From: Candidatus Lindowiibacteriota bacterium
Lineage (GTDB): Bacteria; Lindowbacteria; 2-12-FULL-62-27
Direction of reading: 5' to 3'
DNA length: 9,758 bases
NCBI GenBank assembly: GCA_023249255.1
Contig: JAHFCY010000118.1
Span: forward strand, 1 to 9,758
This document shows, one piece after another, positions 1 through 9,758 of the stretch. Position 1 is the first letter of the stretch; every line of letters starts with the position of its first letter. The translations under genes were made by a program, and so were the position numbers. The notes below the pieces were generated by a model, which was not told the origin of the DNA, did not search any database, and saw only the letters and a list, made by a program, of their open reading frames with translations.

Positions 1-701
1 AAGACAACGACCGCCGCCGGCAATTTCGATTTCAGCCCGGCCCGATTTTCCATTCAATCGTTCTGGCTGATGAAATCAACCGCACGCCTCCGAAAACCCA
101 GGCGGCGCTTCTTGAGGCCATGCAGGAGCGCAAAGTCACCGTCGCTGGAACCGATTATCCGCTCTCCGATCTGTTTTTCGTCCTCGCTACGCAAAATCCG
201 ATCGAACAGGAGGGAACCTACCCGTTGCCGGAAGCTCAGCTCGACCGGTTTTTGTTCTGCCTGCGCGTGAATTATCCGAACGAGGACGAGGAGAAGCGGA
301 TCCTGTCGCAGGAAAGCTCCGTGCCGGCCGCGCCGATCCGGCCGGTGGTGTCGGCGGATGAGATCAAACACTTTCAGCGCCAGGCCCGTGAAATCATCGT
401 CGCTGAAAGTCTCGTCGCGTCGGTGGTCCGCGTCCTGCGCGAAAGCAGGCCCGATGTATCGTCGATCCCGGAAATTCGCCGGCATGTCCGCCTCGGCGTC
501 GGCACCCGCGCCGGAGCGTTTCTGCTGACGGCGGCCAAAGCCCGCGCGCTTCTGGCCGACCGGCCGCACGTCACGCCGGACGACATTCGCGCCGTCGCTC
601 CGCCCGTCCTCTCGCACCGGATCCTCATGGATTTCACGGCCGAGGCCGAGGGAGTCAAATCGTCGCAGATCATAGACCGGCTGGTTTCGCTAATTGCTTG
701 A
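1..701 (+). CDS. MoxR-family AAA+ ATPase, 5' end missing
   Basis: The reading frame is open from base 3 at the left edge, so the N-terminus, including the Walker A loop, lies outside the window; about 232 residues remain. Visible in order are the Walker B segment IVLADEINR followed by the MoxR signature PPKTQAALLEAM, the sensor-1 strand LATQNP, the signature IEQEGTYPLPEAQLDRF, and a C-terminal lid helix beginning GVGTRAG (sensor-2 position, usually GASPRA in this family). MoxR ATPases are cytoplasmic ring-forming AAA+ proteins thought to act as chaperones or metal-insertion factors for partners with vWA domains. The next gene overlaps its stop by 4 nt (TTGA), so the two are probably translationally coupled, and vWA proteins follow downstream. 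The family call is firm; the substrate is unknown. Confidence 0.96.
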   Translation, partial: DNDRRRQFRFQPGPIFHSIVLADEINRTPPKTQAALLEAMQERKVTVAGTDYPLSDLFFVLATQNPIEQEGTYPLPEAQLDRFLFCLRVNYPNEDEEKRILSQESSVPAAPIRPVVSADEIKHFQRQAREIIVAESLVASVVRVLRESRPDVSSIPEIRRHVRLGVGTRAGAFLLTAAKARALLADRPHVTPDDIRAVAPPVLSHRILMDFTAEAEGVKSSQIIDRLVSLIA

Positions 702-1576
702 GCGAACAATCCCTCAAGTCTTCCGCCCGAATTCTTTTTGAATCCATTGTCGGCCTGAAAGTCCGCCCGAGATTTTGCCGTGCGGAAGGTCCGTCCGGCC
801 TTCATCGGTCTCCCCAGCGTGGAGAGACGGTCGAATTTTCCGAATACAAACCCTATGCGCCGGGCGTGGAACTGCGGTTTGTGGACTGGAAACTATACGC
901 GCGGACGGACAGGCTGTTCGTCAAATCGTTTTGCGACGAGCGTGCGTCCAGGTTTTTGGTCGTCTGCGACGACAGCGAATCGATGCGGTATCCGAAGGAT
1001 GGGCCGATGAAGATCCAGTTGGCCGGAGAACTGGCCCTCGGTCTCGCCTTTCTCGCCGTCCGGCGCCAGAAGGATGCCCTCCACCTGACCGCGCTGTCTC
1101 AAGTGTCCGGTGATGATCTGTCGGAATCCCAACCGCTTGGCGGAATTTTCGTGGGGATCGAGCGCATTTTGAATGAGGCGAAATCCAGCGCGACTTCGGC
1201 GCCTCTTCTCGAATCCCTGTCGAATCTCGATCTGCGGTATCCGACGACGATTATCGTGATTTCCGATTTATACGAACAACCCGGCGAGGTGTTGAACTGG
1301 AGCCTTCGGATGCGCCATCGCGGCCATGAATGCTGGTTCTTGCAGACGCTGTCCAGGGAGGAAATTGCGCTTCCGTTCGAAAGTCTGAGAAATTTCGTCG
1401 ACGTCGAAACCGGCCATAAACTTCAGCTCGATCCCCGGGCAATCCGGTCGCATTACAGCCGCGCCCTGCATGACCACATCTCCGGATTGAAGGCTCTTGC
1501 GGCTCACGGCCGGTACGCCCTCGGCATCGTCGGCCAGGATCCGGCGGTCATCCTCAAACGGTTCCTGACGGATTGA
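698..1576 (+). CDS. DUF58 domain protein (vWA-like MoxR partner)
   Basis: A 292-residue protein starting at TTG, whose first three bases plus the next A form the TTGA overlap with the MoxR stop. Residues 35-80 carry the DUF58 hallmark: GLHRSPQRG, then VEFSEYKPYAPG, then RFVDWKLYARTDRLFVKSF. The usual PGDD of this motif is PGVE here. A vWA-type fold follows with an intact-looking metal-site motif D91-D-S-E-S95 and the later strand TTIIVISD ending in Asp190. No transmembrane segment is visible, so it is probably cytoplasmic or membrane-associated. DUF58 proteins almost always sit beside MoxR ATPases, as here, and are taken to be their direct partners. No biochemical activity is assigned to the family. 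Confidence is high for the family and the start is well supported by the overlap. Confidence 0.95.
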   Translation: MSEQSLKSSARILFESIVGLKVRPRFCRAEGPSGLHRSPQRGETVEFSEYKPYAPGVELRFVDWKLYARTDRLFVKSFCDERASRFLVVCDDSESMRYPKDGPMKIQLAGELALGLAFLAVRRQKDALHLTALSQVSGDDLSESQPLGGIFVGIERILNEAKSSATSAPLLESLSNLDLRYPTTIIVISDLYEQPGEVLNWSLRMRHRGHECWFLQTLSREEIALPFESLRNFVDVETGHKLQLDPRAIRSHYSRALHDHISGLKALAAHGRYALGIVGQDPAVILKRFLTD

Positions 1577-1597
1577 CGCGCCACAGATGATCCATCC

Positions 1598-3550
1598 ATG
1601 ATTTTTTCGTTCCCCACTTTTTTGCCGTGGATTGCCGCGGCGTTTCTCCCATGGATTCTCCATCTGTTTTTATTCCGGAAAGCCGAGACGTTGCGGTTCC
1701 CCTCGCTCTATTTTTTGAAACAATGCTATGGCTGGTCAAATCGCCTGAAATGGCAGCGCCTCCTCCTCTTGCTCACGCGTTCCGCCCTGATGCTCTATTT
1801 CATCCTCGGCTTGCTTGGCCCCAGTTTCGAACGCGCCGCCGTCCCGAGCGGTTCGGCGGTGAACGGGTCGATTCTGTTCGTGCTGGACGACCGGCCGGCC
1901 ATGAAAATGAACGTGATGGCAAAGTCTGAATCGTTTTTTGAAAAATACAGGCAGGCGCTGATTGAGGAGCTGGAACACCGGCCGCATACGCAGGAGGTCG
2001 CGGCGGTTCCCCTCTCGGATTTGGCGGTTCCGGCGTCGATCCGGTTTGACTCGCCTCGCACGGCGATCGCCAAAATCCGAACGGCGGCCGTCTATTCCCT
2101 GGCCGTTCCGGCGGAAGAATATCTGCGCACATCTTCCGAACGACTGCGGTGTACCGTTCTGTTTTTCAGCCCGTTCCGGCTGGACATCAAGGATCCGAAA
2201 ATTTTGCGCGTCGGACCAAATTCCGCGCCTCAACCCAACGTGACGATGCTGTCGTTGAAATCGCCCACTGGCGCATTGGCGGGCCAGCCGGTTCCCCTCG
2301 AGGCGGCATTGGTCGATCCCTACGGCAGACCCGCCGACGCGATGGTCCGGTTTCAATTGGACACGCAGGAACTGGCCGTCGTGCCGGCCGAACGGGGACA
2401 CGCCGCGTTCGTCATGACGGGAGCGGCCGAAGGACGCCATCTGATCACGGCCGAAATTCTCCAGTCGGCGCCGGATGGATATCCCGACGACGATGCCCGG
2501 ACCGCCCAGATTGTGATCACGTCGGACCGCAAAGTCGGCGTTGCGTCCGGGACGTTGCCGAAAGCGTTCCAGGCGGCGCTTCAGGCGTTCGATCCGTCGT
2601 TTTCTCCATCGGAGGATGACGCATCCGCGTCCGGCCGATCCACAATTGTTCTTCGGTCCGAAAAACAGTGGGATCAGATCCGCCGCGTAATCCTGATCGA
2701 TGCGCCTGATGTCGCCCCGCCGGTGATCCGGAAAACGCTGGCCCGCGGCGCCGACATCGTCATATTTTCCGACGCGTGGGAATCTCGAACCGTGCAATGG
2801 CCCTATTCATTTCAGATGTCGATGACCGGCGATGCGTCGGTCGTGTCGCTCGACGCCTCCACGCTGTTCCAGATCGCCGGCGCGCCTGACGGATATTCCG
2901 ATTATTCTTCGTCCGCCACGCCGAATCGATATCTCAACGTCGTGCGAAAACTCAAATTGACGCCCCGGCCCGGCGATGTCGTTCTCGCCTCATTCACAGA
3001 CGGTCTTCCCGCCATCGTCCGCCGTCCGGTTGATCACGGATCGATCACGTTCGTCGCATTTTCAATCGACGATCCGTTTTTTCAGAGCAATCCCGCGTAT
3101 CTGCTTTTCGCGCAGAAACTCATCACGCTTTCGGAGCCGCAGTCTCCGGCCGTTCCCGCAAATTCGCGCGAGCCTCTGTTTGCGGCGATCCCGCTTCGCT
3201 CCGGCGCCGGCATTCCGCTCGGATCCGCCGCTCCCGCAGGTCCTGTTCGTTTAACGCAGGGGTCCGTCTCCGCCGTCTTGAGCCTCGGATACACGGGAGG
3301 TTCGTTTTTCGCCGAATTGCCATCGCCGGCTCCGTCCGCGGGGTTGTACCATCTGCTCGTTGCCGACGAAGAACGAGGCCTCGTCTTTCTTCATCCGGCC
3401 CCGCCGCCGCAGGTCGCACTGGCTGCAGACGCTGATTCGGGCCGGCAGCGATTCGAGATGGAATCGTTCTTTTTCTGGATCGCGATTTTGCTCATGGCCG
3501 TGGAACTTCTCTTGCTCCGCCAGATGAGGTCTCCGTCGTATGCATCTTGA
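1598..3550 (+). CDS. BatA-type membrane protein with degenerate vWA domain
   Basis: A 650-residue protein. The N-terminus matches the BatA / aerotolerance N-terminal region: a hydrophobic segment at residues 4-26 (FPTFLPWIAAAFLPWILHLF), a cytoplasmic loop with TLRFPSLYFLKQ, then a second membrane segment at about 55-74. A vWA-like strand follows (SILFVLDDRPAM, about 91-102), but the expected metal-binding DxSxS reads D-D-R-P-A, and the later strand that should end in SD(G/L) reads TVLFFSPF. The metal site therefore looks lost. A large extracytoplasmic region follows, including GDVVLASFTDGLPAIVRR near the C-terminal third, which resembles the amidotransferase-like segment of such proteins. One membrane helix ends the chain (about 625-641, FFFWIAILLMAVELLLL). 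It starts 21 nt after the DUF58 gene with no clear ribosome-binding site, and its end overlaps the next gene by 11 nt. Confidence 0.88.
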   Translation: MIFSFPTFLPWIAAAFLPWILHLFLFRKAETLRFPSLYFLKQCYGWSNRLKWQRLLLLLTRSALMLYFILGLLGPSFERAAVPSGSAVNGSILFVLDDRPAMKMNVMAKSESFFEKYRQALIEELEHRPHTQEVAAVPLSDLAVPASIRFDSPRTAIAKIRTAAVYSLAVPAEEYLRTSSERLRCTVLFFSPFRLDIKDPKILRVGPNSAPQPNVTMLSLKSPTGALAGQPVPLEAALVDPYGRPADAMVRFQLDTQELAVVPAERGHAAFVMTGAAEGRHLITAEILQSAPDGYPDDDARTAQIVITSDRKVGVASGTLPKAFQAALQAFDPSFSPSEDDASASGRSTIVLRSEKQWDQIRRVILIDAPDVAPPVIRKTLARGADIVIFSDAWESRTVQWPYSFQMSMTGDASVVSLDASTLFQIAGAPDGYSDYSSSATPNRYLNVVRKLKLTPRPGDVVLASFTDGLPAIVRRPVDHGSITFVAFSIDDPFFQSNPAYLLFAQKLITLSEPQSPAVPANSREPLFAAIPLRSGAGIPLGSAAPAGPVRLTQGSVSAVLSLGYTGGSFFAELPSPAPSAGLYHLLVADEERGLVFLHPAPPPQVALAADADSGRQRFEMESFFFWIAILLMAVELLLLRQMRSPSYAS

Positions 3551-5504
3551 ATTTTTGAGCGACCGCAAGAGTTTCGTGCTTCTGATGACGGCCCTGGCCG
3601 CGCTGGCCGTGCTGGCGGCGGCATTTGTGTATCCCCGGCCGGTGTTGCGGCGGCTCTTTGCGGTCCGCGCCGCTGTGATTTTCCTGTTTTTTTTCGGCGC
3701 CATTTCCCTCACCGCTGTCTATCCCGCCGCACGCACGCATGAGGCCACGCTCTATGTGATGGTCGACCGCTCGGTCAGCATGGATCAGAAGCCGCCGTCC
3801 GGCGGATCAAGATCTCCCCAAGAGACGGCTTCGGAATATCTGGCCCGCCTCAAAGACGCCTGCGACTCGGCCGGCGCAAATTTACAGGTTCTCTATTTCG
3901 CTGAACAGGCGTCGGACCAGATGTCGCAGATCGGCCGCCGGACAACGACACAGCTCTCGCCGGCTTTCTCGCTCCTCCTCGACCGGACGACAGCCCCGGG
4001 TCAGGCTGGATCTGCGCGGGCGATTTTGTTGTCCGATGGCGCGGCCGCCGACGAGCCGATGATCGAACCGTATTTGACTGCCCTCAATGAGCGCGGCCTT
4101 CCGGTGGACGTGATGTCCATCGAGGAGGCCGGCGAGGCCGGCGCGCCGAAATTATTTTTCCGGACTCCTGCGCCCAGCGTATCGACGGTCGGTGAAAGCA
4201 TTCCGATAGATATCGGAGTCGTCTCGTCGACGTCGGTCAGACTCACGGTCCTGGAAGGGAACACGCCGGCGGCGGACCGGACGGTTCAGAATCCGGCGGA
4301 GTTATCCTCCATTTATTTTGTTCCCAAAACGCCGGGCCTTCGCACGATCGTGGTCACCGCGCAAAATCAGCAGGGATCGACACGGGCTCAATTTCGGATG
4401 AAAGTTCTGCCGCGCCTCCTGCTTGAGCTGGAAGGTCAGCCGTCCTGGGATGCCCGGTTTTTTCTTGTCAGCGCGTCCCGGCGTCCCGGCGTATCGGTTC
4501 GGGGCCGTTGGGGCTCGCCGCCGTCATCCGATACGCAGTCGGTCGTCGTCTATTTTGGCGGACACGATATTTCACAACCGCCCGCTTCGCCTGTGATTTT
4601 CTGGGCGCAGTCGGAAATGCGGGGTGAGAATCGCGGCATTCGCTGGCTCGGCCGCCAGTCGGGATCATGGATGCCAACCACTGCGTCCGATCCGCGTCTG
4701 CGCGCGTCCGGCCGCCTCCAGCCGCTTTCGGGCCGCCAAAAAATTCTCCTCGATCTCGGATGGACGGTGCTCGATCGATATCCCGACGACATGCCGTTTC
4801 TGGCCGAACGCACGGATACGTCAGCGTCTTTGGCTTTTCTCGTGAACGGTGAGGGACTCTGGCGCTGGTGGCTCAATCCGGTGCTCGCGTCGGCCGATCC
4901 CCTCTCGGCCTCATCGCCCGCCTACGAGGCTGTTGTGGACCGGATCATCCAATGGGCGCGCCGGGCGGCCTTTCCGCCGGCAGAATTATTTTCTGTTCAG
5001 GAATCGGGACAGATGGGCGTGGCCATGGAATTTCTTGCTCTGTTTTCAATCGCCCCGCGGTCTGCGCCGCCACTCACCGTCGTTTCTCCGGATGGATCGC
5101 GCGAACAGGTGTACGGCGTGGGTACATCCGCAATCCGCTATTCGTATGTCCCGCGTCGCGCCGGCACGTATCAGGCGGTCCTATCGGCCGGATCGCTTCA
5201 GCCGGCAACGGCGGTGTTTGACGTGTCCGACGTTCCGTTTGATGTGGCTCATCCCGAACCCCGGCCGGATCTTCTCCGCCATATCGCCGGCAGAACGGGC
5301 GGCCGCCTCCTCGCCTCGAGTCACGATCGCATGAACCGCCCGATGAATGCCGACGCGCTTCTTTCGGAAATTCACGCGCTCGCCGCCACGCCCATCCGGG
5401 CCGCTGACCTGCGCGTGCGATTGACCGAGACACCGGCGTTTTTCGCGGCTCTCATCCTCCTCTTCGCCGTCCTCTGGACGCTCGAATCCAAATGGATCCG
5501 TTGA
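3540..5504 (+). CDS. membrane-anchored vWA domain protein, intact MIDAS
   Basis: A 654-residue protein. Two N-terminal membrane segments (about 11-29 and 42-60) are followed by a vWA domain at about 70-195. Its metal-ion-dependent adhesion site is intact: VDRSVSM gives D76-x-S78-x-S80, and ILLSDGAA supplies Asp166. Beyond lie beta-rich, Ig-like stretches (about 205-300 and 520-585), a middle region resembling the amidotransferase-like domain of such proteins (SVVVYFGGHDISQ), and a C-terminal membrane helix (about 632-648) ending in SKWIR. A GAGG at 3526-3529 lies 10 nt before the ATG, which sits inside the end of the preceding gene. The paired architecture suggests it forms a membrane complex with the degenerate vWA protein upstream, serviced by the MoxR ATPase; that is inference from family context. 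Confidence 0.9.
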   Translation: MHLEFLSDRKSFVLLMTALAALAVLAAAFVYPRPVLRRLFAVRAAVIFLFFFGAISLTAVYPAARTHEATLYVMVDRSVSMDQKPPSGGSRSPQETASEYLARLKDACDSAGANLQVLYFAEQASDQMSQIGRRTTTQLSPAFSLLLDRTTAPGQAGSARAILLSDGAAADEPMIEPYLTALNERGLPVDVMSIEEAGEAGAPKLFFRTPAPSVSTVGESIPIDIGVVSSTSVRLTVLEGNTPAADRTVQNPAELSSIYFVPKTPGLRTIVVTAQNQQGSTRAQFRMKVLPRLLLELEGQPSWDARFFLVSASRRPGVSVRGRWGSPPSSDTQSVVVYFGGHDISQPPASPVIFWAQSEMRGENRGIRWLGRQSGSWMPTTASDPRLRASGRLQPLSGRQKILLDLGWTVLDRYPDDMPFLAERTDTSASLAFLVNGEGLWRWWLNPVLASADPLSASSPAYEAVVDRIIQWARRAAFPPAELFSVQESGQMGVAMEFLALFSIAPRSAPPLTVVSPDGSREQVYGVGTSAIRYSYVPRRAGTYQAVLSAGSLQPATAVFDVSDVPFDVAHPEPRPDLLRHIAGRTGGRLLASSHDRMNRPMNADALLSEIHALAATPIRAADLRVRLTETPAFFAALILLFAVLWTLESKWIR

Positions 5505-6247
5505 ACCGGGTGGGACATGACAAACGCCGTCTCTCACGGGAACATCCTTATCCTGTCTGTGTTGGTCTGAGGTGGTCTGTGTCTGTCTGTGGCTCGGTTT
5601 TGATCTTGTTGCTTTCTCTTAATATTTTTGTTCCTCCCTTTGCTTTCGCCTCCGAGCTCCCCGGATTCGCCCGCCTCGCCTACGACGGCGGCGGCGATTG
5701 GTACAACGATCCCGGCATCCTCGAAAATTTGCACCGCTACGCCCAGCAGAACACGGGATTCGCTTTCGACCCGCTCGAACAGTCGGTGCGCCTGGGCGAT
5801 CCGGATCTCGCCGAACATCCGTTTCTCTACATGACCGGCCACGGCAACATCAAATTTTCAGAGGATGACATCAGGCGCCTTCGAGCCTATCTCCTCGCCG
5901 GCGGCTTTCTCTACGCGGATGATGATTTCGGCATGGATGAGGCATTCCGCCGCGAGATGAAAAAGGTTTTTCCGGAAAAGGCATGGATCGAGCTTCCCAA
6001 AACACATCCACTTTTTTCAGCCTATTTTCAATTCCCCACCGGCGCGCCCAAAATTCACAAGCATTACGGCGGCCCTCCGCGCGTGCTTGCGCTCATGGAA
6101 GGTGACCGGATTCTGGTGCTCTACACCTTTGACACCAACATCAGCGATGGCTGGGCCGATCCCGAAGTTCACGGCGACCCGAAGGAAATCCGGGAGGCCG
6201 CCCTTCAGTTCGGCGTCAATATTCTTCTCTTGCCCCTGACCCGTTAG
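5492..6247 (+). CDS. exported DUF4159 domain protein
   Basis: From ATG 5492 this is a 251-residue protein with a hydrophobic signal segment at about 34-52 and a probable cleavage after AFA (residues 51-53). The rest is a DUF4159 domain: LAYDGGGDWYNDP, then HPFLYMTGHGNIKFS, LRAYLLAGGFLYADDDFG, FRREMKKVFP and THPLFSAYF are all characteristic. No enzymatic function is established; the fold is thought to be related to amidotransferase-like or ThuA-like domains. The family often occurs in MoxR/DUF58/vWA operons, matching this position. The start is uncertain. ATG 5492 overlaps the upstream gene by 13 nt but has no ribosome-binding site. GTG 5579 has GAGG at 5569-5572 with a 6-nt spacer and would give a 222-residue protein with a short signal peptide, though one lacking positive charges at its N-terminus. 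Confidence 0.9.
   Translation: MDPLNRVGHDKRRLSREHPYPVCVGLRWSVSVCGSVLILLLSLNIFVPPFAFASELPGFARLAYDGGGDWYNDPGILENLHRYAQQNTGFAFDPLEQSVRLGDPDLAEHPFLYMTGHGNIKFSEDDIRRLRAYLLAGGFLYADDDFGMDEAFRREMKKVFPEKAWIELPKTHPLFSAYFQFPTGAPKIHKHYGGPPRVLALMEGDRILVLYTFDTNISDGWADPEVHGDPKEIREAALQFGVNILLLPLTR
5555..5594 (+). repeat. 10-bp tandem repeat, four copies (GTCTGTGnnn)
   Basis: Four consecutive 10-mers share GTCTG(T/A)G: GTCTGTGTTG at 5555, GTCTGAGGTG at 5565, GTCTGTGTCT at 5575 and GTCTGTGGCT at 5585. The period is not a multiple of three, so it does not encode a peptide repeat. It lies in the signal-peptide region of the DUF4159 gene or, if that gene starts at GTG 5579, across its start. The phrasing resembles short TCTGTG-rich 10-bp-period intergenic sequences that I recall from other environmental bacterial genomes. 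That comparison is from memory and not checked. Confidence 0.7.
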
Positions 6248-6412: not shown

Positions 6413-6459
6413 CTGTTTTTCCTGCGCTCAGTGAATTCTATTTGCTCAATTCCATTGGG

Positions 6460-7710
6460 ATGATCACGCAATCGGAATTTCGGCGAAAGGTGATCGTGGG
6501 GTGGATTGCCCTGCAGATTTCCATTTTCGGAGTTGCGTCCTATTGGGGACTGTACCGGATCCATCAACTCATGGAACGGCAGATGGTGGAGGGTATCCAG
6601 CGGCATCTGACTCGGATCGCCACTCTGGTGTCCCGCGGGGAATTGCCCCTGCAAAATGTCGTTACAGCCGCCGGGATTCATCCGAGGGTGATCCGGGCGA
6701 GGATCGAAAAATTACCCGACACGTCCCGGATGTCGGGCGGGACGCCGCCGGGATCGAACGGCGTGAACATCCGAGTCATTCAAGAAGGAACCGGAGTCTT
6801 CCACGATTTCAGTCATGTCTATGAAGGCTCGGTACCGCTCAACGGCGGCGCTGAAAAGTTCGTCGCCATTTACGAAACCTCGGACGTCAATTCCGCCTTC
6901 GCTCGAAGTTCCAAAGCGCTCATCGAGACCCTCGGTATCCTGCTCGTTCTTTCCACCCTCTGCGCGGGCTGGGTCTATCGGGCGCTGGAGCGGAAAGTCG
7001 AGGAACGGACGAAGGAGCTGATGCGGACGCACGAGGAGCTGGCGCAGGCGGAGAAGATGGCGGTGCTGGGAGAGATGGCGGCCGAATTGGCCCACGAAAT
7101 TCGAAATCCCCTCGCCGGCATCCGCCATGCCGTGGAATTTCTATCGTCCAGACATGGGGATTCGTCGAGCCGAAATGAAATGTCGAAACTGTCTCTGACC
7201 GGATTGGATCGGATCGAGCGGATGATTTCGAGCACATTGACCCTGGTCAAGCAGGGGACTCGCAATCCGGAACGGCTGTCCGTCACGAAAGTCTCACTAA
7301 CGGATCTGATTCGGCAGGCCGCGTCGGAAATGGGATTGAACCGGCAGGTGACGGTAACGACAAACGGCGGAAATTCCCATTCGGCATTTGTCGACCGCGA
7401 CGCGACGATCCAGATTTTGTCAAATCTTTTCCGCAACGCCGCCGATGTTTCGAAGGGAGAAGCAATCCTCGTCACGATTCAACACGAATCGGGAAACATC
7501 CACGTCTGCATTCAAGACAAAGGACCGGGGATTTCAGAAGTTGCCCGGGACCGGATTTTTGAGCCTTTTTTCACGACGAGACCGGGTGGGCTGGGTCTGG
7601 GGTTGGCCATCGCCCGGCACCTCGCGCGGAGTCAGAATGGCGATCTCAAAGTCGGGGATTCGGACACCGGAGGATGTTTTGTGTTGACCCTGCCCGAGGC
7701 GTCGGCATGA
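6460..7710 (+). CDS. membrane sensor histidine kinase
   Basis: A 416-residue kinase from ATG 6460; an in-frame TTG at 6442 would add six residues, and neither start has a good ribosome-binding site. A first membrane helix (about 11-29) and a second (about 154-174) flank a sensor segment of about 120 residues that I do not recognise. After a charged, coiled-coil-like linker comes the HisKA domain with the H-box LAHEIRNPLAG, where His212 is the predicted phosphorylation site. The ATP-binding domain shows the N-box LSNLFRNAAD (Asn322, Asn326), the G1 box DKGPGIS, the F-box FEPFFTTR and the G2 box GGLGLGLA. This set marks an NtrB/AtoS-like kinase. Its stop overlaps the start of an NtrC-type regulator by ATGA, so the two are cognate partners. 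Confidence 0.95.
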   Translation: MITQSEFRRKVIVGWIALQISIFGVASYWGLYRIHQLMERQMVEGIQRHLTRIATLVSRGELPLQNVVTAAGIHPRVIRARIEKLPDTSRMSGGTPPGSNGVNIRVIQEGTGVFHDFSHVYEGSVPLNGGAEKFVAIYETSDVNSAFARSSKALIETLGILLVLSTLCAGWVYRALERKVEERTKELMRTHEELAQAEKMAVLGEMAAELAHEIRNPLAGIRHAVEFLSSRHGDSSSRNEMSKLSLTGLDRIERMISSTLTLVKQGTRNPERLSVTKVSLTDLIRQAASEMGLNRQVTVTTNGGNSHSAFVDRDATIQILSNLFRNAADVSKGEAILVTIQHESGNIHVCIQDKGPGISEVARDRIFEPFFTTRPGGLGLGLAIARHLARSQNGDLKVGDSDTGGCFVLTLPEASA

Positions 7711-9098
7711 TATCTTCGGTGAGATCGCCCCATGAGAAATCTCCGCGCGGCCGGGTGTTGTTGGTTGACGATGACGTCATTTTCCGCAGGGCGCTGGCGG
7801 CGACGCTGTCCCATGCGGGGTTTTACGTCCGCGCGTATGCGTCTGGAACGGAAGCTCTGGCCGGCATCACGACCGAGACGCCGGGATTTGAAGTGGCGCT
7901 TATCGATTTGCGCATGCCGGCAATGGATGGCATGTCAGTTTTGCGTGAAGCCCATCGGATGGATCCATCCCTCCATATTATAATGCTGACGGCCTACGGG
8001 GATGTGCCGGCGGCTGTCGAAGCCGTCAAGGCGGGAGCGGAGGATTTTCTTTTGAAGCCGATGGAGACGGCCCTGTTGGTGACGAAATTGACGCGAATTT
8101 GCAATGTCCGCCGGGCGATGAGAAAAGCATCCAAGGGAACTCAAATCATCCACCAGAGCGCCGTCATGCGGCAACTGCTTGCCGATGCGCGTCGGGTGGC
8201 GACGGCGCGTTCGACCATTTTGATCGTCGGCGAAACAGGATCGGGCAAAGACTTACTGGCACACTACATCCACCGTCACAGCAGGCGCAAAGGACCTTTT
8301 GTGGGAGTGAACGTGGCCGCGATTCCACGCGATCTTGTGGCGGCTGAACTTTTCGGAAACACCAAAGGCGCATTCACGGGCGCCGTATCGGAACGCAAAG
8401 GCCTGTTTGTCGCGGCCCACGGCGGGACGTTGTTTCTGGATGAGGTTGGCGACATGCCAATGGAACAACAGCCGCATCTTCTGAGGGCGCTCCAGGAAAG
8501 ACTCGTTCGGCCCGTGGGTGGAACCGAGGAGCGGCCGGTCGACGTGCGCGTGATAGCGGCGACCTCCAAGGACCCCGATACGCTGGTGTCCTCCAAACAA
8601 ATCCGGCAGGATCTCTTTTATCGGCTCTCCGTGGTTATCCTCCGGATCCCGCCGCTTCGGGAACGCAAAGAGGACATATCGGCGTTGGCGGAATCATTTC
8701 TTGAATCTGTCCGGCAACAGGGAGTTGCCGCCGCCGAAACGATCTCGACAGAACTGCTGAACATCCTCGGAAAACACGACTGGCCGGGAAATGTCCGTGA
8801 ACTTCAGAATGTCATCCTGCGCATGGCGATCGCCTCCCCATCCCGCGAGTTGACGCCGCGGGATCTGCCGGCTGATTTTTCGGCGTCGTCCATGCCGGCC
8901 ATCCGCCCCTTGATTGACCTGAAGCGGCTGGCGGATCTCGAAGGCTGTATCACGTTGCCGGAAATTCTGGATCGCGTCGAACGGGAAAGCGTCATGTGGG
9001 CGATGACGGTCAGCGGAGGAAACCACAGCCGGGCCTCAAAACTCCTGCGTATTCCGAGGACCACATTGAATGCGAAGATCACGAAATGGTCGAAGTGA
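7707..9098 (+). CDS. sigma-54-dependent NtrC-family response regulator
   Basis: A 463-residue regulator with three domains. The receiver (about 16-130) has the acidic pair D21/D22, phosphoacceptor Asp67 in ALIDLRMPAMDG, Thr95 and Lys117. The central AAA+ domain (about 147-375) has Walker A GETGSGKD, the sigma-54-contacting GAFTGA loop (221-226), Walker B TLFLDEVGDM and the arginine motif FYRLSV. The C-terminus (about 430-460) is a Fis-type helix-turn-helix, GGNHSRASKLLRIPRTTLN. The AAA+ entry sequence VNVAAIP departs from the common VNCAAIP. ATG 7707 overlaps the kinase stop as ATGA and has GAGG at 7696-7699, 7 nt upstream. An in-frame ATG at 7674 is less likely because its GGAGG abuts the codon. 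When phosphorylated it should activate sigma-54 promoters; the adjacent cytochrome gene is the obvious candidate. Confidence 0.97.
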   Translation: MISSVRSPHEKSPRGRVLLVDDDVIFRRALAATLSHAGFYVRAYASGTEALAGITTETPGFEVALIDLRMPAMDGMSVLREAHRMDPSLHIIMLTAYGDVPAAVEAVKAGAEDFLLKPMETALLVTKLTRICNVRRAMRKASKGTQIIHQSAVMRQLLADARRVATARSTILIVGETGSGKDLLAHYIHRHSRRKGPFVGVNVAAIPRDLVAAELFGNTKGAFTGAVSERKGLFVAAHGGTLFLDEVGDMPMEQQPHLLRALQERLVRPVGGTEERPVDVRVIAATSKDPDTLVSSKQIRQDLFYRLSVVILRIPPLRERKEDISALAESFLESVRQQGVAAAETISTELLNILGKHDWPGNVRELQNVILRMAIASPSRELTPRDLPADFSASSMPAIRPLIDLKRLADLEGCITLPEILDRVERESVMWAMTVSGGNHSRASKLLRIPRTTLNAKITKWSK

Positions 9099-9140
9099 TG
9101 CGCCAACCGCGGCCGATTCGATTCGCGTCATGGGGCCGTA

Positions 9141-9159
9141 GTGTCCGCCGTCAGGACAC
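9141..9159. promoter_or_regulatory. GTGTCC-N7-GGACAC inverted repeat, candidate upstream activator site
   Basis: A perfect 6-bp inverted repeat, GTGTCC at 9141-9146 and GGACAC at 9154-9159 with a 7-bp centre, spans 19 bp. Its centre is about 143 bp upstream of the transcription start predicted from the -24/-12 element. Enhancer sites for NtrC-family activators commonly lie 100-200 bp upstream of such promoters, and this family is encoded immediately upstream. The half-site CAGGACA also occurs at 6327-6333, before the kinase gene. Binding is inferred from symmetry and position alone. Confidence 0.55.
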
Positions 9160-9161
9160 AC

Positions 9162-9187
9162 GTGACGGATTTCCGTCACTTTATTTC
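9162..9187 (+). terminator. 18-bp hairpin with weak T-rich tail; possible terminator or operator
   Basis: GTGACGGA (9162-9169) and TCCGTCAC (9172-9179) form a perfect 8-bp inverted repeat around two T residues, followed by TTTATTT. It begins 63 bp after the regulator stop, a reasonable place for a terminator of the kinase/regulator operon, although the T tract is interrupted. Its symmetry and its position between the other palindrome and the -24/-12 element also allow a role as a protein-binding site. The sequence does not decide between them. Confidence 0.5.
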
Positions 9188-9266
9188 GATTTGTCCAGCG
9201 TCGGCCGAAATTTTAACGGGTTGTGTATCACCAAGTTGTCACGTATGCGGGACGTTGGACTTGTTG

Positions 9267-9282
9267 TGGAATCGTCTTTGCA
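9267..9282 (+). promoter_or_regulatory. sigma-54 (-24/-12) promoter of the cytochrome gene
   Basis: TGGAATCGTCTTTGCA matches the sigma-54 consensus TGGCACG-N4-TTGC(A/T). The invariant GG (9268-9269) and GC (9280-9281) are exactly 10 bp apart, and the -12 half TTGCA is complete. The -24 half TGGAATC departs from TGGCACG at three positions. Taking the final C as -12 puts the transcription start near 9293, giving a leader of about 62 nt before ATG 9355. The neighbouring NtrC-type activator and the upstream inverted repeat support the call. Confidence 0.68.
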
Positions 9283-9342
9283 ACACCCCCTCAAATGGCG
9301 TTTGCGCATTCATCGAACGCCTGTGGTTGCTCCATAACAGCA

Positions 9343-9349
9343 AAGGGGG
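9343..9349 (+). promoter_or_regulatory. strong ribosome-binding site for the cytochrome gene
   Basis: AAGGGGG lies 5 nt before ATG 9355. It is one of the clearest Shine-Dalgarno matches in the window and fixes this start. Confidence 0.75.
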
Positions 9350-9354
9350 TCTAT

Positions 9355-9758
9355 ATGAAGACAGGTCAACTGACGATTCTTGTTGTGCTCTGTTTGATTT
9401 TCGTGATGGGAGAGATGGCGCTGGCGCCGGACGCTCATGGCATGCCCAACTTCGCGCGCAAATACAACATGAGTTGCGGCGGATGCCACATGCCCGTTCC
9501 GCGGCTCAATGAGTTCGGATATCAGTTTCGTGCCGCCGGTTACCGCATGCCCGATGGCATCGGCAAAGAGGAAACCTCGAAGGACATGGGGGACTACTTC
9601 ACGGCTCGGACGCAGATTCGATACGACCGCAGGCAGACAAAGGCGGCTCTGACCGGCGTGAAGACGAACAAGAGTGAGCAAACTCTGCATGAGGTCACAC
9701 TCTATCCGATCACGGGAGCGTACGCCAAGAATTTCTCCTCGATGATTGAAATGTCCGT
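9355..9758 (+). CDS. exported mono-heme c-type cytochrome, possibly an outer-membrane barrel fusion (3' end missing)
   Basis: The first 134 codons of a gene running off the right edge. Residues about 6-19 form a hydrophobic signal core (LTILVVLCLIFVMG), with probable cleavage after ALA (22-24) and export to the periplasm. Next comes MPNFARKYNMSCGGCHMPVP with one CxxCH heme-attachment motif (C41, C44, H45), then RLNEFGYQFRAAGYRMP. This FAR-KY..SC..CH...P.LN.FG..FR..GY pattern is one I know from poorly characterised cytochromes of environmental bacteria. The following alternating stretches (YFTARTQIRYDRR, TLHEVTLYPITGAYAKNF) look like outer-membrane beta strands, as in cytochrome-porin proteins such as Cyc2; this is inference from a fragment. 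It is transcribed separately from the regulator gene, probably from its own sigma-54 promoter. Electron-transfer partner and substrate are unknown. Confidence 0.8.
   Translation, partial: MKTGQLTILVVLCLIFVMGEMALAPDAHGMPNFARKYNMSCGGCHMPVPRLNEFGYQFRAAGYRMPDGIGKEETSKDMGDYFTARTQIRYDRRQTKAALTGVKTNKSEQTLHEVTLYPITGAYAKNFSSMIEMS

Follow-up and report, generated by a model that had tools for sequence, protein, structure and literature searches.

The outer-membrane electron-conduit operon that appears to begin at the end of the window, the stretch of 9,758 nucleotides analysed here, is probably under two layers of control. The first is transcription by sigma-54 polymerase and the second is a feedback in which a 3'UTR element, complementary to a ribosome-binding site (RBS) of the operon, would act on the start of its own message. 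From the sequence elements, their conservation and complementarity and the order of the genes, we infer that the operon is transcribed, that the regulator binds, that element and RBS pair in vivo and that the effect is repression, along the following lines. A sensor kinase would phosphorylate an NtrC-type regulator, which would bind the inverted repeat or repeats at 9141-9179 and drive sigma-54 polymerase from a -24/-12 element at 9267-9282. The resulting single transcript would carry a cytochrome-porin, a c554-type multihaem cytochrome and a lineage-only protein of 358 aa. As this message builds up, the 3'UTR element, whether still part of the mRNA or set free as a small RNA, would pair with the RBS and limit translation of the barrel protein, and possibly also that of further outer-membrane barrels that share this RBS.

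Both regulatory genes lie on the forward strand of the window. The kinase (6442-7710) is a plain HisKA/HATPase_c sensor (PF00512 and PF02518), and the regulator (7674-9098; PF00072, PF00158, PF25601 and PF02954) has a receiver domain, a sigma-54 AAA+ domain and a Fis-type HTH, with the GAFTGA loop intact within AELFGNTKGAFTGAVSE, as the original prediction had it. The regulator reached no NCBIfam equivalog cut-off, and its homologues elsewhere are distant (Methylotenera, Pseudomonas and others, at about 35-44% identity), spacer comparison with them being uninformative. The target gene starts at 9355 on the same strand and is cut at 9758 by the end of the contig. The last 31 bases of the window are exactly the first bases of a further contig, C161, and across this 31-nt overlap the open reading frame runs on to base 917 of C161. 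The joined protein has about 429 aa and ends in GIFLW. It appears to be a fused cytochrome-porin, with a signal peptide and one CxxCH at the N-terminus and a barrel-like remainder, and it found no match in Pfam, NCBIfam or the PDB. An exported c-type cytochrome had been predicted here; the continuation on C161 points to a single-haem, barrel-like protein and not to a simple soluble cytochrome. After the cytochrome-porin gene, C161 carries a c554-type multihaem gene (Cytochrome_C554 domain, PF13435) and the gene for the 358-aa protein, and the operon closes with the 3'UTR element and a terminator. The 358-aa protein belongs to no clear family and is present in 3 of 386 genomes, all three of them from this lineage. 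These three were compared throughout: G000, which holds the window, C161, C55, C291, C292 and C356, and its family relatives G001 and G002. Gene order in the window and C161 is that of G002 C39, and the 358-aa gene is also found in G001 C8. In layout, a single-haem N-terminal domain followed by a predicted outer-membrane barrel, the window protein resembles Cyc2, the fused cytochrome-porin of iron oxidisers (PMC8406198), the two being compared by layout and not by sequence homology. It differs from Cyc2 in that no family model (Pfam, NCBIfam) matches it and in that its operon has a c554-type partner. Upstream of the kinase, at 3-6247, genes for a MoxR-type AAA protein, a DUF58 protein, a BatA-like protein, a 654-aa membrane protein and a DUF4159 protein stand in a row. 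Gene sets of this MoxR/DUF58/BatA-like/DUF4159 kind are common and poorly understood.

Control of the operon by sigma-54 is very likely, judging from the spacer and its counterparts. The -24/-12 element TGGAATCGTCTTTGCA lies on the forward strand at exactly the predicted position, 9267-9282, with GG-N10-GC spacing and TTGC at -12. It would place the transcription start near 9293, just ahead of a predicted leader hairpin (GGCGTT...AACGCC, 9297-9321). With position weights that are our own approximation of the published consensus, its score has p=0.015 when the 220 nt before the RBS are dinucleotide-shuffled; of 298 upstream regions taken as background, 3.0% score 9.9 bits or more and 2.3% score at least 11 bits. 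Taken alone, at this 1.5-3% level, the match is suggestive, not decisive. The case is strong because such a site occurs in all five cytochrome-porin leaders: when the 220 nt before the RBS were scored in the window, C291, G002 C7, G001 C8 and G002 C39, the best 16-mer had GG-N10-GC spacing every time (TGGAATCGTCTTTGCA, TGGAACCCTTTTTGCA, TGGAATGTCATTTGCA, GGGTACCCCTTTTGCA and CGGCATGGATTCTGCT, with shuffle p values of 0.015, 0.005, 0.007, 0.033 and 0.015). Four porin leaders of the KIEITG/KIELSG type share the RBS and are without a -24/-12 element (p=0.53-0.66), so that conservation of the promoter and of the RBS are separable; a fifth porin leader, in G001 C5, carries CGGAATATCCTTTGCA (p=0.03). 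It is quite improbable that the element is a chance match, with the operon relying instead on read-through from the kinase and regulator genes or on another sigma factor. Scores this high do occur in about 3% of upstream regions, but the recurrence in all five leaders speaks against chance, as do a sigma-70 scan of 9000-9500 in which no promoter was found and the place of the element as the best local match between paralogous spacers.

These paralogous spacers belong to a second kinase, regulator and cytochrome triple on C291, in the genome of the window itself, where the regulator is 61% and the cytochrome 45% identical to those of the window and the kinase is present in two pieces (47% and 34%). 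The top local match between the two spacers starts exactly at the -24/-12 element (9267-9304; 12 of 500 shuffles equal it), and their global alignment is weakly better than that of shuffles (75 vs 55 +/- 10). The same order of three genes is found in G002 C7 with a regulator of 36% identity, and further cytochrome-porin operons are present in G001 C8 and G002 C39. Together with the parts list and with an rpoN gene in the genome (1.2e-51), whose absence would have counted heavily against it, the recurrence at C291 and G002 C7 supports the original prediction that kinase and regulator are wired to the cytochrome gene through sigma-54. The arrangement is like that of NtrC-, AtoC- and ZraR-type systems in its receiver-AAA+(GAFTGA)-HTH regulator, adjacent kinase, candidate enhancer and -24/-12 promoter, and differs in its target, here an apparent electron-conduit operon.

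The enhancer is the weaker half of this layer, although sensor, activator, enhancer candidate, promoter and target do all occur in one piece as had been proposed. The palindrome GTGTCC-N7-GGACAC, a candidate activator-binding site, is present at 9141-9159, and on its own a repeat of 6+6 bases is weak evidence. A further perfect inverted repeat at 9162-9179 had been overlooked (GTGACGGA-TT-TCCGTCAC, followed by TTTATTT); it may be a second operator or a weak terminator of the regulator gene, and a terminator scan picks it up at about chance frequency. At the equivalent places and in the same order, the C291 spacer has the similar GTGTGTC-N7-GACACAC, in which the distance between the arms differs by 2 bp, and then a shorter GCGG-TTTT-CCGC. 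The palindromes of the G002 C7 spacer, TTTCAAAATGAAA and TTTCAATTTGAAA, are unlike those of the window. Binding of the activator to the repeat or repeats at 9141-9179 is plausible and unproven.

The second layer concerns the strong RBS that had been noted before the cytochrome start codon. This sequence, AAAGGGGG, does stand ahead of the ATG at 9355, and it is probably an RNA-pairing site as well. Twelve nucleotides of it, GCAAAGGGGGTC (9340-9351, forward strand), are perfectly complementary to GACCCCCTTTGC on C161, where the 3'UTR of the same operon reads GACCCCCTTTGCCGG near 2835-2846, just before the terminator; as RNA, the element GACCCCCUUUGCC is the exact complement of the RBS GCAAAGGGGGUC. 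Every cytochrome-porin leader of the family has the decamer GCAAAGGGGG ahead of its start codon. When the three genomes were searched whole, 10 of 10 decamers in RBS position preceded genes for outer-membrane cytochrome-porins or porin-like proteins, a count that leaves out a self-complementary repeat (G001 C4:85210) and chance matches within ORFs. The 3' element has the consensus CYYYUUUGCCGGUAAGGUCCGA (core CYYYUUUGCCGGUAAGGUC). With up to 3 mismatches and in both orientations it has 12 copies in the three genomes and the reversed control has none. Two of the copies, at C292 and G001 C41, are full-length and in the target orientation; the others lie mostly on the sense strand at the 3' ends of outer-membrane operons and are followed by a G+C-rich hairpin and a T run. 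Two looser searches were discarded, since the matches of GGCAAAGRRG-N-ATG were mostly within ORFs or unrelated and several matches of CCCCCTTTGC in G001 fell in unremarkable coding or repeat regions. We likewise set aside the idea that the conserved GCAAAGGGGG leader is a riboswitch, as Rfam gave no match at gathering or relaxed thresholds and the flanks are not conserved.

Six outer-membrane operons in the three genomes carry both the RBS target and the 3' element. Pairing extends over 12 nt for the window and C161, 12 nt in G001 C8, 11 nt in G001 C5 (an operon whose genes, by eye, encode a porin, an Fe-S protein, an oxidoreductase, a chaperone-like protein and a tetrahaem protein), and 10 nt each in G002 C39 and in C291/C356, these two contigs being linked by homology only; in G002 C7 it includes one G-U pair, judged by eye. 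Tried against the leaders of all six operons, the window element fits its own best (12 nt vs 11). This greater length comes from a matched difference, T to C in the RBS and A to G in the element, giving GGGGGTC/GACCCCC where the other operons have GGGGGTT/AACCCCC. A second matched variant occurs at the porin of C55, whose RBS is altered to CAAAGAGGGG and whose own element, 50 nt past the stop codon, is altered to CCCCUCUUUG.

On these grounds it is rather likely that pairing between the RBS and the 3'UTR element is functional. The alternative is that the sigma-54 layer alone is real, the decamer being a strong RBS kept by descent and the 3' sequences a separate, terminator-linked repeat of the lineage with a chance likeness to an anti-Shine-Dalgarno sequence. 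The decamer fits the general anti-Shine-Dalgarno, the genes are partly paralogous, and self-complementary CCCCCTTGCAAAGGGGG repeats are scattered through G001 and G002 as well. The loci being partly homologous, the counts given above are not independent events, and since the seed of the element is C-rich and anti-Shine-Dalgarno-like, some complementarity to any RBS is expected. In three operons (C291/C356, G002 C39 and G002 C7) the real element is in fact outdone in pairing strength by the best of its 500 shuffled versions, and folding predictions for the C291 and G001 C8 leaders have the target largely base-paired. In a duplex-energy ranking of 360 leaders, barrel leaders came top for four of the five elements tested and were not ranked first for the stand-alone C55 element. 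Nevertheless we consider descent alone unlikely: the decamer is identical in two cytochrome-porin and two porin groups in spite of diverged flanks, its complement lies on the sense strand at the 3' ends of the very operons that bear the target, and the variant RBS of the C55 porin is paired with a variant element.

If the pairing is functional, the RNA that carries it may take more than one form. The short elements (C55, G001 C30 and two in G002 C124) are predicted to fold with the 5' seed left unpaired, followed by a GGUAAGG hairpin and then a strong terminator; four base pairs are altered on both sides in a compensatory way, among only four sequences. At C55, G001 C30 and the second G002 C124 copy (C124b) a -10-like sequence of TAAAAT type lies, by eye, about 20 nt upstream. 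No element matched Rfam at the gathering score, and an RNA model run over 290 genomes gave outside the family weak matches alone, of 28.4 bits or less. Neither Hfq nor an RNase_E_G match (RNase E/G) was found in the three genomes, and both searches detected their control genomes; the assemblies are 81-94% complete, so that absence is not certain for any single genome.

These observations bear on a further possibility, that the elements are trans-acting small RNAs of one outer-membrane regulon and that the RNA of each operon represses competing barrels more than itself. The three -10-like sequences before compact seed-hairpin-terminator RNAs would suit it, as would the C356 element, which follows a paralogous barrel operon at its end and fits the RBS of the C292 porin over 14 nt, its best partner. 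The porins of C292 and G001 C41, moreover, have the target and no obvious element of their own. On the other side, most elements sit in the 3'UTRs of operons that carry the target themselves, the window element prefers its own leader, and the failure to find Hfq and RNase E/G makes a released Hfq-dependent small RNA unlikely. We regard this possibility as somewhat doubtful, and the preferred reading remains a feedback of each operon upon itself.

Feedback from a 3'UTR to a Shine-Dalgarno sequence has been documented for few genes, the closest cases being in pathogens with well-known RNA machinery. In icaR of Staphylococcus aureus a C-rich anti-Shine-Dalgarno motif in the 3'UTR, UCCCCUG, pairs with the G-rich Shine-Dalgarno UAGGGGG of its own mRNA, so that translation is blocked and the message becomes open to RNase III; of the decay factors tested the RNase III mutant alone affected IcaR levels, and an hfq mutant had no effect (PMC3868564). 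The C-rich 3'UTR motif complementary to the Shine-Dalgarno sequence of its own operon, over 12 nt in the window and C161, is common to both. However, icaR is one gene of a Firmicute, while the element described here is longer and conserved, is found in at least six outer-membrane operons of another lineage, and has matched variants. OppZ and CarZ of Vibrio cholerae are autoregulatory small RNAs derived from 3'UTRs; the RNA comes from the end of an operon and pairs with a translation-initiation region within it, and OppZ requires maturation by RNase E as well as Hfq (PMC7398697). Here too the element lies in the 3'UTR of the operon with which it pairs and is ended by a terminator, but the searches of the three genomes brought up no RNase E/G and no Hfq. 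That argues against an OppZ-type pathway and for one like that of icaR, or for an unknown chaperone. Repression as the sign of the regulation, and a route that either stays inside the mRNA or uses a released RNA, are suggested by analogy with icaR (PMC3868564) and with OppZ and CarZ (PMC7398697). We read the window system as like these in effect, without the machinery of OppZ, a reading that is unproven.

More broadly, it is tentatively possible that this lineage, in which Hfq and RNase E were not detected, runs a regulon of 3'UTR anti-RBS RNAs over sigma-54 control, so that respiratory and porin operons limit themselves and compete. Each operon-end RNA would then match its own RBS and, more weakly, those of other barrels. 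If this is true, operons with matched complementary 5' and 3' ends would show the device working without Hfq or RNase E machinery in an uncultured lineage, and in a functional class, outer-membrane electron conduits, in which over-production is costly. An apparent strong RBS could then be a regulatory target that is seen only by reading the far end of the operon, and the matched variants of RBS and element offer a natural basis for testing by compensatory mutation.

Several related sequences were seen alongside. A second group of porins, with the C-terminus GIGWQF (L016 994-2281, L263 near 7453, and L206 and L208 on the minus strand), has the RBS (C)AAAGAGGG(A/G)G or GGTAAAGGAGG, and its members in C55 and G002 C124 are followed by a seed-hairpin-terminator element. 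A porin gene in G001 C1, which sits after PII-like and ammonium-transporter-like genes, has a diverged element, CGCCCTTTTACCGGTAAGGTTC, with a terminator directly past the stop codon (L261, minus strand). The dispersed CCCCCTTGCAAAGGGGG repeats, flanked by GAGGGGGG, occur at L180, L183, L186, L188, L196 and L201 in G001 and at L191 in G002, and have the decamer in common either by chance or by descent. Near position 43557 of G001 C4 (L258) the apparently intergenic sequence AACCCCCTTTGCGGTAAGGTCTCAATAAGACC may be another stand-alone element. Finally, the G002 C7 operon has its 3' end, comprising the end of a cupredoxin-like gene, the element and the terminator, duplicated on G002 C111 (L209 and L014).
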